Below, piece by piece: positions 3,528 to 8,597 of a stretch of 9,324 bases of DNA. Under the pieces are notes generated by a model. It worked only from the letters and a program-made list of their open reading frames with translations, was not told the origin of the DNA and ran no database searches. The stretch's first letter is position 1. Each line of letters starts with the position of its first letter. The stretch covers positions 1 through 9,324 of the forward strand of contig DYJV01000076.1 of NCBI GenBank assembly GCA_020722945.1, read 5' to 3'. This DNA comes from Candidatus Methylomirabilis sp. (GTDB taxonomy: Bacteria > DYJV01). The position numbers were made by a program, and so were the translations under genes.

Positions 3528-5360
3528 TTGAAAAATATCAAAGTAGGAGTCGTAACATTAATTTTTATCTTATTCTCTATTAATCTTTTTGCTAATTCAC
3601 CATGGGACAACCTTGCACATCAGTTGAATAACTTTTTTTCATACGGAAATATTGAAAGTTATCTTATCCAAAATACATCTGATGGTGTGATATCTTTTCA
3701 AATATCATCTACTCAACCTACACTATTTCCTAACAACGAACTTATTATAAAGAAAGGTGGCTCTAACCCTTTGGCAACTGAGACTCTCGGTTTTGCAAAA
3801 TTTTTAGGTTTTTTTAATCAGGCAGGGTCAGCCAAATCTATCTCAATTATCAACAATATATCTCCTGGTGATATCCTTATCAAGCCTTACACCAGAAAAG
3901 TTGTCTTATACACTAATGTTAAAGATAAATACTCATTCAAACCTTATGCAGATTTACAACAGTGTCTTACTTTTAACAACTTCATTATATTTGAGGTTAA
4001 CAAACCAGAAGAGGTCAATCTACTCAACCCATCTGAATACAATATATTAGTGAGGCTTGAAGTTTCAAACGGATTGCTTATAGGGAAAATACAATCTTTA
4101 TACGACAGCACGATACTTTTTAATCAATCTTATCAATTCCCTTTTCAGGTAGCTACCTCTTACCCTGTTGATACTCCTATTGCAATTACATCAAAAGATA
4201 CCAAATCAAAATTCTTTGGTATGAATCAAAATACTCCGAATAAAAGGGAAAGTTATACAAAATCAAAAAAAGATCTTGGAGACTACAGCTTTAAAACTGG
4301 TAAAGATATTAATGAATCTAAACTATCTTTATCAGGTGATTTTGAAGTAATCAAATATAAACTTGACAGAGAAATTACAAGAATAACCACATCTGATGTT
4401 GACGGAGATGGACACCCTGAGATTGTTGGGTTAAACAACTATGGTGTTTTTGCCTACACTATTGAGAATGATACTATCAAATTAAAATACTCATACTCTT
4501 TACCAGGAAACAGCTATATAGGTATCAGTATCTATAATGGTGATTTTAACAAAAATGGCAAAGATGAGCTCTTTGTAACATTGGCAGAGAAATATAAAGA
4601 CCTCGAAATTAACCATACCAAACTTTCCTCCATTATAATAGAGCATCAAGGGGGGAACAACTTCAAAGTTTTAAATAGTAATTTCCCCTACTATTTGAGG
4701 GTTGTGGATGATAGAAATGGGAACAAAGTGCTTTTATGCCAAGAGAAAGAAGAGTTTGAACCATATTCTGGTAAAGTATTTCAAGTCAAATGGTCAGGTA
4801 GTAATTTTAAAGTTGGACAACCATTTGATGAGGCAAAAAATGTTTACTCTATTTATGGATTTGCTCCAAAACCTTCTAATAAAGATTATACACTGATACT
4901 TGATGCTTTTGGTAATGTTTCAGGGTATTTTGCTCCAAAAGAGGAGAAAGTAGATATTATGGATGAAAATTTAGGGGTATTTACTACTATTCCATACCCT
5001 ATAAAGCTTAAATATCCATCAAGCAGGGGTGGTTTTGTATCTGAAAATACAAAAGATTTCTTTGCTTATAGAAGATTTGATTTTAAAAAAGATTACAACG
5101 ATCAAGTTTTTACTGTCAAAACATCATACAACAAAGATACAACAAGGAAAGTAATAAGCAAAATATTCAAAGGTAATGAAGAGCCTGACAGAATTGTTGC
5201 TATTAAATGGATAGGGAATAATATTATCAAAACATGGGAGTCTGATAAAATTTATGGAACTATATTTGATTTCTCATTCTTTAAAGAGAACGACAAAGAT
5301 ATTCTTGCTGTTCTTGTAGAGGATAGAAATGAGGGATACACCGTCCATTTAATGAGATAG
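3528..5360 (+). CDS. Secreted FG-GAP/VCBS-repeat-like protein
   Basis: This 610-residue exported protein starts at TTG. The N-terminus MKNIK plus a hydrophobic core (about 6-21) is a signal peptide, with probable cleavage after Ala22 (LFA/N). Residues 23 to about 220 are a beta-rich region that I do not recognise. From about 275, FG-GAP/VCBS-like units appear with two calcium-loop-type motifs, DVDGDGHPE (290-298) and DFNKNGKDE (339-347), each preceded by a hydrophobic strand. The rest (350-610) has similar blade-like strands but less clear motifs, so a beta-propeller is plausible. Comparable proteins are periplasmic or outer-membrane associated. No lipobox, C-terminal anchor or enzymatic motif is visible. 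It begins 3 nt after the rfaE2 stop and ends in a 12-bp convergent overlap with the minus-strand cluster. Function unknown; a cell-envelope role is inferred from export and neighbours. Confidence 0.8.
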   Translation: MKNIKVGVVTLIFILFSINLFANSPWDNLAHQLNNFFSYGNIESYLIQNTSDGVISFQISSTQPTLFPNNELIIKKGGSNPLATETLGFAKFLGFFNQAGSAKSISIINNISPGDILIKPYTRKVVLYTNVKDKYSFKPYADLQQCLTFNNFIIFEVNKPEEVNLLNPSEYNILVRLEVSNGLLIGKIQSLYDSTILFNQSYQFPFQVATSYPVDTPIAITSKDTKSKFFGMNQNTPNKRESYTKSKKDLGDYSFKTGKDINESKLSLSGDFEVIKYKLDREITRITTSDVDGDGHPEIVGLNNYGVFAYTIENDTIKLKYSYSLPGNSYIGISIYNGDFNKNGKDELFVTLAEKYKDLEINHTKLSSIIIEHQGGNNFKVLNSNFPYYLRVVDDRNGNKVLLCQEKEEFEPYSGKVFQVKWSGSNFKVGQPFDEAKNVYSIYGFAPKPSNKDYTLILDAFGNVSGYFAPKEEKVDIMDENLGVFTTIPYPIKLKYPSSRGGFVSENTKDFFAYRRFDFKKDYNDQVFTVKTSYNKDTTRKVISKIFKGNEEPDRIVAIKWIGNNIIKTWESDKIYGTIFDFSFFKENDKDILAVLVEDRNEGYTVHLMR

Positions 5361-6059
5361 AGATAACTTCTCTATCTTCTTTTTTAATATTTTTTCCATT
5401 TTATTTTTATCTTTCCCCTGCAAAGCACCAACTGGGCATACTTCTACACATTTGAGGCACCCTTTGCAGTAAGTCTCTGATATTTCTTTGTTTTCAAAGA
5501 AAGTTATTATGGTGTTGTATCCTCTTTTTGCAAAATCTATAGAATCTTTTTTGTTAAGTTTACTGCATATATTTACACACCTTCCACATAATACGCATTT
5601 TTTGTAATCGTAGATAATGTGAGGGTGTGTTGTATAATCTATATTGCTGTCTCTTTCAATAATAGGAAGAAATTGAGGTTTTAGTGGAATACCAAGGAAA
5701 TTTGTTATTTTCTGTAATTCACAAACATGATTTGCAATGCAATCTCTGCAAAAACTTTTATCAATTGATAAAAGTAGCTCTACTCCCCATTTTTGGAGCT
5801 CCCTTACCTCCTCTGTATTGGTATGAACTATCATACCCTCTTTTACTTTTTCACTACATGAAGTAACAGGCTGTCCCCTGCCCTCTATCTCAACAAAACA
5901 TAATCTGCAGGATGCATCAGGGTTTTCAGCATTTTTGAGATAGCAGAGGTTTGGTATATAAATATTATTTTCAAGACAGACTTGCAGCAGATTGTCACCC
6001 TCTTTTGCAGTTACTCTCTTACCATCAACAAATATATCAACAAGCTTAACATCATTCAT
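5349..6059 (-). CDS. HoxU-like 2Fe-2S/4Fe-4S electron-transfer subunit (NuoG N-terminal type)
   Basis: A 236-residue iron-sulfur protein equivalent to the N-terminal part of NuoG/HydA or to HoxU. The [2Fe-2S] ferredoxin domain has C39-x11-C51-x2-C54-x13-C68. Next comes the slot for the His-Cys3 cluster (HxxxCxxCxxxxxC), where C104, C107 and C113 are present but position 100 is Asp. Then come two [4Fe-4S] motifs: C155, C158, C161, C165 and C198, C201, C204, C208. The protein stops after the ferredoxin domain with a Lys-rich tail, so no molybdopterin or H-cluster domain is attached. As in HoxU, it would pass electrons between the NuoF-like FMN subunit and an unidentified partner in the cytoplasm. 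ATG at 6059 follows GGAGG (6070-6074 on this strand) by 10 nt. The region upstream has been duplicated in tandem. The 3' end overlaps the convergent FG-GAP gene by 12 bp. Confidence 0.88.
   Translation of the reverse strand: MNDVKLVDIFVDGKRVTAKEGDNLLQVCLENNIYIPNLCYLKNAENPDASCRLCFVEIEGRGQPVTSCSEKVKEGMIVHTNTEEVRELQKWGVELLLSIDKSFCRDCIANHVCELQKITNFLGIPLKPQFLPIIERDSNIDYTTHPHIIYDYKKCVLCGRCVNICSKLNKKDSIDFAKRGYNTIITFFENKEISETYCKGCLKCVEVCPVGALQGKDKNKMEKILKKKIEKLSLSH
5355..5385 (+). terminator. Rho-independent terminator of the plus-strand operon, inside a convergent gene
   Basis: A perfect 9-bp stem, AGATAGAGA (5355-5363) and TCTCTATCT (5369-5377), closes a TAACT loop and is followed by TCTTTTTT (5378-5385). 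The T-run follows only in the plus direction, so it should stop the EF-G2 operon. The 5' arm contains the TAG stop (5358-5360) of the FG-GAP gene. The whole hairpin lies within the last codons of the minus-strand HoxU-like gene and encodes part of its Lys/Ser/Leu tail. Stem GC is low (3 of 9 pairs), which is in line with the AT-rich genome. Confidence 0.75.
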
Positions 6060-6228
6060 CTATTTATATCCTCCATAATCAATCTTCTTCAATTAAAGGG
6101 AGAAGATCTGGTGGTGAAACTACTTTTACTGCATCATAACATCATTCATCTATTTATATCCTCCATAATCAATCTTCTTCAATTAAAGGGAGAAGATCTG
6201 GTGGTGAAACTACTTTTACTGCATCATA
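6047..6228. repeat. Perfect 90-bp tandem duplication at the gene junction
   Basis: 6047-6138 and 6137-6228 are identical over 92 bases with a 90-base period, so the copies share a 2-base TA at the joint. Read on the minus strand, each copy holds the last 19 codons and TGA stop of the NuoF-like gene, the GGAGG site, and the first 13 bases (ATGAATGATGTTA) of the HoxU-like gene. The upstream copy (6137-6228) serves as the real NuoF-like end. The downstream copy (6047-6138) serves as the real HoxU-like RBS and start. Neither reading frame is broken. Total identity implies a recent event or an assembly artefact. Confidence 0.95.
6126..6149 (-). other. Decoy 7-codon minicistron made by the duplication
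   Basis: The upstream copy of the HoxU-like start keeps its GGAGG site (6160-6164) and ATG (6149). After four original codons (MNDV) it runs through the duplication joint into the copied NuoF-like tail in another frame and stops at TAA (6126-6128), giving MNDVMMQ. Ribosomes may initiate here and terminate 66 nt before the true start at 6059. It is a by-product of the duplication, not a conserved gene. Any effect on translation of the HoxU-like subunit is inference. Confidence 0.5.
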
Positions 6229-8073
6229 TTCTGGTGGACAAACTTTTACACATTCACCACACTTCACACACTTTTTCTGATCTATAATTTTCTTTCTTGA
6301 TTTTTTTGTGGTAAAAATAGCCTCTGTTGGACAACATCCAAGACATGCATCACACCCTCTTGCACATTTATCAAGATCAATATAGTAAGCTATCAGATCC
6401 CTGCACATAAGTGATGGACATTTTTTGTCAATTATGTGTGCAATATACTCATCTTCAAAATACCTGATAGTTGTGAGAATAGGATTTGGTGCAGTTTTAC
6501 CAAGTCCACAAAGTGAACCTTTGACTATAACATCACTAAGCTTTTTCAGTAGTGAGATATCCTCCATCTCCCCTTGCCCCTTTGTAATACGCTGAAGTAT
6601 TTCAAGAAGCTGCCGTGTACCTACTCTGCAAAATGTGCATTTCCCACAAGATTCTTTTTGGGTAAAATCAAGAAAAAACTTTGCAACTTCAACCATGCAG
6701 CTACTACTATCCATTACTACCATTCCACCTGAACCCATCATTGCACCAGCTCCCCTCAAGGAGTCAAAATCTATCGGGATATCCAAAAAAGCTTCAGGAA
6801 GACAACCACCAGATGGCCCACCTATCTGAACAGCTTTAAACTCTTTACCACCTTTTATCCCACCACAAATATCAAATATAAGATGCCTCAAAGTTTCTCC
6901 CATAGGTAGTTCAACAAGACCAGGATATTCAACATCACCAACTACTGAAAAAATAGCTGTTCCAGGACAATTTGAAAGACCAATTTCTTTGAAAGCTTGG
7001 GCACCATTTCTCAAGATATAAGGGATAGCTGATAACGTTTTGACATTGTTAATCAAAGTAGGCTGCCCTTTAAAACCTCTCTCTGAAGGGTAAGGCGGTT
7101 TTACAGTAGGGACACCCCTTTTACCTTCTAATGAAGAGATAAGAGCAGTTTCCTCTCCACATACAAAAGCTCCTGCACCTTGAAAAACAGATACATCTAT
7201 ACTAAAATCAGAACCAAATATATTTTTACCTATAAATCCCTCTTTTTTTGCATCATGAATAGCAGTTTTCATGGTATTGACTGCAATAGGATACTCTGCT
7301 CTGATGTATAAAATTGCATTCTCTGCTCCTATTGAATATGCACCTATCAAGAGTCCTTCAAGTAACTGGTGAGGATTACTCTCCATTATTGTTCTATCCA
7401 TATATGCACCAGGATCACCCTCATCACCGTTGCAAATTATAGTTTTGAAATCACCACTTGAATTGGCAGTAATCTCCCATTTAACTCCAGTAGGGAAACC
7501 TGCACCACCCCTACCCCTCAATCCAGAGTTTTTTATAACCTCAATTATATCCTCTCTTTTCATTCCAAGAGCTTTTATAAATCCAGAATATCCTTCATTT
7601 GCAATATAATGCCTTATATTGTAAGGATCTATAATCCCATTAATGTTCATTACTATTTTCTTTTCAAATAAAAATCTTGGATAATCATTGATATTTGGAT
7701 AATTGTCATCAGGAGTTATGGACCCTATCATATAGTCAAAACATGGATCACCTTCTATCAAGAATGCTTTTACAAGAACCCTTGCCTCCCCTTCCCTGAT
7801 ATTTTTATACATAAGTGGAGGAAAACCGGGATTTTGAATTGTAACAATAGGTTCTGCATAACAGTGTCCATTGCATCCAACTGGGACCACTTCACCTTGC
7901 AAATTATACTCTTCAAGCATATCTTTGAATGTTTTTATCGTGTCTGTTGATCCTGCAGCTCTTCCACAAGTAGCATTCCCAACATAGATGATAATTTTAT
8001 CTGAATTTATGAGATTGTTCCACTCAGATATAGATTTATCCTTTATATTTGCATACATATCGTAAAAATTCAT
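6169..8073 (-). CDS. nuoF: NuoF/HndC-like NADH-binding flavoprotein subunit with extra Fe-S domains
   Basis: A 634-residue subunit that would oxidise NAD(P)H with FMN and pass electrons to Fe-S clusters. Residues about 25-105 form a thioredoxin-like ferredoxin domain with ATCGRAAG (C36) and VGCNGHCYAEP (C67, C71). The NuoF core follows: GRGGAGFPTG (187-196) and GAGAFVCGEETAL (299-311) for FMN/NADH binding. The N3-type [4Fe-4S] cluster has C476, C479, C482 and C522. The C-terminus (about 565-615) is a double ferredoxin with C570, C574, C577, C580/C581 and C602, C605, C608, C612. This extended form is typical of NuoF-like subunits of NAD(P)-linked hydrogenases, formate dehydrogenases and bifurcating enzymes, not of short complex I NuoF. 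ATG at 8073 overlaps the NuoE-like stop (ATGA, 8070-8073), with GAGG just upstream. The stop lies in a duplicated 90-bp segment. NADH versus NADPH preference cannot be told from the sequence. Confidence 0.93.
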   Translation of the reverse strand: MNFYDMYANIKDKSISEWNNLINSDKIIIYVGNATCGRAAGSTDTIKTFKDMLEEYNLQGEVVPVGCNGHCYAEPIVTIQNPGFPPLMYKNIREGEARVLVKAFLIEGDPCFDYMIGSITPDDNYPNINDYPRFLFEKKIVMNINGIIDPYNIRHYIANEGYSGFIKALGMKREDIIEVIKNSGLRGRGGAGFPTGVKWEITANSSGDFKTIICNGDEGDPGAYMDRTIMESNPHQLLEGLLIGAYSIGAENAILYIRAEYPIAVNTMKTAIHDAKKEGFIGKNIFGSDFSIDVSVFQGAGAFVCGEETALISSLEGKRGVPTVKPPYPSERGFKGQPTLINNVKTLSAIPYILRNGAQAFKEIGLSNCPGTAIFSVVGDVEYPGLVELPMGETLRHLIFDICGGIKGGKEFKAVQIGGPSGGCLPEAFLDIPIDFDSLRGAGAMMGSGGMVVMDSSSCMVEVAKFFLDFTQKESCGKCTFCRVGTRQLLEILQRITKGQGEMEDISLLKKLSDVIVKGSLCGLGKTAPNPILTTIRYFEDEYIAHIIDKKCPSLMCRDLIAYYIDLDKCARGCDACLGCCPTEAIFTTKKSRKKIIDQKKCVKCGECVKVCPPEYDAVKVVSPPDLLPLIEED

Positions 8074-8597
8074 TTTTTAACCTCTGATTTTCTACTTTCT
8101 ATCTCTTCTTGAATTTTATGTGATTCTATCAACCCTTCAACTTTGCTTGGTGTAAAATAACCCTCAACATTCTCATTTACAACAACAACAGGAGCTAAAG
8201 AACAGCAACCTACACATGCAACCCTTTCGAGACTATATTTTCTATCTTTGGTAGTCTCCCCTTCATGAATATTAAGTTTTCTTTCAAAATTCTCAAGAAT
8301 AATATTAGCACCTTTAACATGGCAAGCTGTCCCGAGGCATACTTTAATCTGGAATTTACCTGGTGGATTAAATTTGAATTGGTTGTAGAAAGTGGCAATA
8401 CCGTAAACTTTGTTGTGTGATATAGAGAAATACTCCCCTATCATTGAGAAAGATTTTAGAGGGATATAACCAAATTTGTTTTGTATGGTCTGTAAAAGGG
8501 GGAGAACACGAGAGTAATCTTTAGTAAAATTATTGAGCAACTCTTCTATATCTTCAAGTATTTTAGATTCATCAAAAAATTCTTCATCTCTTTCCAT
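8070..8597 (-). CDS. nuoE: NuoE/HndA-like [2Fe-2S] thioredoxin-fold subunit
   Basis: A 175-residue protein of the 24-kDa complex I subunit family. The N-terminal helical part (about 10-75) includes the family-like stretch LLPLLQ-TIQNKFGYIP and VYGIATFYNQF. The thioredoxin-fold [2Fe-2S] domain has C87-x4-C92 (CLGTAC) and C128-x3-C132 (CVGCC, with one extra Cys at 131), then LAPVVVVN. Length is normal. It sits beside the FMN of the NuoF-like subunit in the cytoplasmic arm of such enzymes, where the cluster may store one electron from NADH oxidation. GGAGA (8605-8609 on this strand) precedes ATG by 7 nt. It overlaps the NuoF-like gene by ATGA and lies 81 nt downstream of the zinc-ribbon gene. 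The last about 15 residues are a charged, Glu/Lys-rich tail. Confidence 0.93.
   Translation of the reverse strand: MERDEEFFDESKILEDIEELLNNFTKDYSRVLPLLQTIQNKFGYIPLKSFSMIGEYFSISHNKVYGIATFYNQFKFNPPGKFQIKVCLGTACHVKGANIILENFERKLNIHEGETTKDRKYSLERVACVGCCSLAPVVVVNENVEGYFTPSKVEGLIESHKIQEEIESRKSEVKK

Follow-up and report, generated by a model that had tools for sequence, protein, structure and literature searches.

In bacteria, small tandem duplications arise by replication slippage or short-homology-dependent illegitimate recombination and are described among the small variable segments of genomes (PMC2884548). The spacing of neighbouring genes has been studied with an E. coli reporter, in which translational re-initiation falls with distance and is at background (<3%) at 40 nt separation, and genes translated independently hardly respond to the gap (PMC2268962). 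In the HoxEFU/HydBC-type NADH dehydrogenase module, the genes of three redox subunits follow one another in the order E, F, U, and relatives of this module have a single F-U junction. Here, we describe a module of the same gene order and domain content in which the F-U junction is present twice in the assembled sequence.

The window, that is, the whole stretch of DNA analysed (9,324 nucleotides), corresponds to an entire contig (C146) of a draft genome of 184 contigs and 2.51 Mb. On its minus strand, the genes E, F and U lie in succession. The first of this three-gene set (8070-8597) encodes a NuoE/HoxE/HydC-like thioredoxin-type 2Fe-2S subunit. F (6169-8073, stop codon at 6169-6171) encodes a NuoF/HoxF/HydB-like flavin subunit of 634 aa with Complex1_51K, NADH_4Fe-4S and C-terminal ferredoxin domains. 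U (5349-6059) encodes a HoxU-like or HydA N-terminal-like iron-sulfur subunit of 236 aa with Fer2_4 and Fer4 domains. The end of U overlaps by 12 bp (5349-5360) that of a convergent plus-strand gene (3528-5360) coding for an FG-GAP repeat protein. In contrast to the HoxEFU/HydBC-type modules, no FeFe hydrogenase catalytic domain is encoded downstream of the genes in the window. Moreover, none of the genes of the genome encodes an FeFe hydrogenase catalytic subunit scoring above the TIGR02512 family cut-off. The genome carries a second HoxEFU-like E-F-U set on another contig (C50, L131:5132-8152), located directly downstream of pyruvate/2-oxoacid:ferredoxin oxidoreductase-type genes. Since no FeFe hydrogenase was found above the cut-off, both modules may serve another partner.

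At the F-U junction, positions 6047-6228 consist of a 90-bp unit repeated once, head to tail and without any mismatch. Tandem Repeats Finder (TRF) reported 6047-6228 as the sole tandem repeat in the window (period 90, 2.0 copies, 100% match, 0 indels), a repeat finder delimited the copies as 6047-6136 and 6137-6226 with 100% match, and an exact-match scan gave 92 identical bases starting at 6047 and 6137, at a distance of 90. About 2e-44 exact repeats of such length are expected by chance in the window, and a chance origin is excluded. The identity over 92 bases announced by the sequence-only reading is thus correct. That reading had also placed a 2-base joint between the copies. The two bases do exist, but they do not join the copies as an extra element: with a period of 90, the dinucleotide TA is the sequence common to both original borders of the unit, the unit-to-unit joint reading TGTTA|TGATG. 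No further copy of the unit was found elsewhere in the genome.

In each unit, the last 18 codons of F and its stop codon are followed by 19 nt that include a GGAGGA Shine-Dalgarno site, and then by the U start with the codons next to it. In the copy lying upstream on the minus strand (6137-6226), the F end and stop codon are those of the F gene itself, and the Shine-Dalgarno site is followed by a decoy start. In the downstream copy (6047-6136), the F tail is a relic outside any long frame, and the Shine-Dalgarno site, the start (6059) and the first codons are those actually used by U. The distance from the F stop to the U start is consequently 109 nt, whereas a single unit would leave 19 nt. 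The decoy start behind the duplicated Shine-Dalgarno site opens a mini-ORF (6126-6149, minus strand) encoding only MNDVMMQ before a stop codon. Both F and U are intact, and their proteins are unchanged by the duplication. The minus-strand frames and the measured gap therefore agree with what had been proposed from the letters alone, namely a unit spanning the NuoF-like end and the HoxU-like ribosome-binding site and start, with F ending in one copy and U beginning in the other, a spacing enlarged from 19 to 109 nt, and an added decoy start. The seemingly rebuilt junction needs no special mechanism, because any tandem duplication across a stop and a start codon spares both genes.

The sequence-only reading had suggested that the junction be compared in related strains, and we identified F/U pairs in relatives by tblastn, leaving out as unreliable the distant rows with fused or missing starts (e.g. 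L019, L020, L024, L025 and L051). The relatives closest in U (46-48% identity) are two Desulfobacteraceae and one Bacillota metagenome genome. A single unit is present in L037 (F 68% identical, gap of 9 nt), L038 (F 59% identical, gap of ~22 nt) and L039 (F 53% identical, gap of 5 nt), whose F tails are homologous, such as YDAVRKVSPPDKAPIVE. The paralogous set on C50 also has one unit, with a 12-nt gap. Adjacent copies identical at 100% over 92 bp are thus peculiar to the window among these five junctions. In other relatives, F-U gaps of 35-138 nt occur in the absence of any duplication of this kind, indicating that the family at large accepts a wide gap. In L021, a distant relative, the gap between the F-like and U-like genes holds a different tandem repeat, made of CCTCTTGCCTTTTGCC-type units. 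The best match to F in the other genome of the same phylum (n=1) was weak, and no F-U junction was found in viral contigs.

The sequence-only reading had raised the possibility of an assembly artefact. In that case, the genome of the organism would carry a single unit, and the extra copy would stem from the handling of a loop in the assembler or from chimeric reads in the library. Such a concern is legitimate for a draft of 184 contigs with 5.79% contamination. We surveyed stretches of the assembly totalling 987,125 unmasked bases (~0.99 Mb), many short contigs being masked and read as N. In the sampled stretches, two of the six gaps of 100 N are bordered left and right by identical 55-base flanks, and contig C24 ends in 55 bases that duplicate an internal segment of exactly this length. 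From these flanks and from the way such assemblers work, the assembly was apparently built as a 55-mer graph. The 92-bp repeat exceeds this length and would form a loop in the graph, which makes the copy number uncertain and is a point in favour of an artefact. Exact tandem repeats are also found at contig starts or beside an N gap (L077:1-191 on C21, L085:1-400 on C29 and L071:17369-17567 on C20, with periods of 75, 27/30 and 42 bp, respectively), indicating that the assembly tends to break at tandem repeats, as at the starts of C21 and C29 and the end of C24. However, a 55-mer graph of a single unit has no loop, and a gap-free second copy would therefore need reads crossing the unit-to-unit joint. 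Moreover, 55-base overlaps elsewhere were left as 100 N, whereas the 92-bp repeat is free of any N gap. Within the 0.99 Mb sampled, gap-free duplications of period 55 or 90 did not recur, and no comparable duplication of a gene junction was found. Other exact tandem repeats (period 12 to 75 bp), several of them at contig ends, are present in the sample, so such events do occur in this genome. Given this assembly signature, the duplication is probably real in the organism; the worry about an artefact is lessened, and we regard it as unlikely.

Perfect direct repeats of such length can gain or lose copies, and the sequence-only reading had envisaged a length switch. In such a switch, the presence of one, two or more units would set the U:F ratio, with translation of the two genes coupled or uncoupled. 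For a U gene that relies on coupling, the widening from 19 to 109 nt might be of consequence, re-initiation being at background by 40 nt (PMC2268962). However, a strong Shine-Dalgarno site of its own precedes U, and the gap has little influence on genes translated independently (PMC2268962); gaps of 35-138 nt in other relatives point the same way. Only two copies are present, no single-unit allele was found in the same assembly, and the closest relatives found have no repeat at the junction. Furthermore, phase variation does not usually target a subunit of a soluble redox complex. These observations speak against the switch, which we consider very improbable; that a reversible gain and loss of 90 bp toggles F-U translational coupling and adjusts the make-up of the NADH:acceptor complex, with the proteins untouched, is in our view extremely improbable. 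Reading frames and predicted start accessibility do not differ between one and two units, the predicted opening energy of the real U start being practically equal in both cases (~8 kcal/mol). The unchanged accessibility argues against a duplication that became fixed because it is adaptive, whether by lowering or raising U synthesis or by adding a promoter or regulatory site. The duplication does lengthen the leader by 90 nt and supply an extra Shine-Dalgarno site as well as a mini-ORF, but no sigma-70-like promoter was found in 5900-6400 (2.1 expected in shuffles), the accompanying search gave no terminator-like site, and neither an Rfam family nor tRNA features were detected. Adaptation is therefore also a highly improbable explanation.

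The explanation that we consider likely is that illegitimate recombination recently duplicated 90 bp in tandem, by chance and almost neutrally, across the F-U junction of a HoxEFU-type module. The original borders share only the 2 bp TA, so that illegitimate recombination or template switching is a likelier origin than RecA-dependent exchange; the tandem copy would have been produced by slippage or template switching at this microhomology. The perfect identity, maintained over 92 bp even though coding constraint is absent from most of one copy, suggests a recent origin, and the tandem duplication sparing both genes that the sequence-only reading had put forward is, judging from this identity and from the distant single-unit relatives, probably recent. 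As perfect direct repeats do, it would collapse to one copy at a low rate. For its translation, U would use its own Shine-Dalgarno site, that of the second copy, and the main effect would be at most a modest change in U synthesis, through the loss of any coupling and some capture of ribosomes at the decoy start. Uncoupled translation with an altered subunit ratio, as had been proposed, is thus possible as a small predicted change in U output; a large one is unlikely in view of the strong Shine-Dalgarno site of U, the equal predicted accessibility and the wide gaps of relatives. The duplication is probably close to neutral.

In itself, the duplication is of little importance: mutations of this kind are ordinary, and the amount of the second protein would change slightly at most. 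It illustrates cleanly that a tandem duplication across a stop and a start codon can lengthen the gap between two genes and keep both whole and, if its copy number proved variable, translational coupling in redox operons could be tested on it in a simple natural setting. Among known systems, minisatellite or VNTR loci are similar in having perfect head-to-tail copies that could change in number, but only two copies are present here, in a single assembly. The small tandem duplications described previously (PMC2884548) are closer, since they measure tens of bp, have tiny border homology and leave genes intact, and the size of the unit is within the between-strain range given there. Whereas those duplications lie wholly inside or between genes, the one read here in a single genome spans a stop/start junction.
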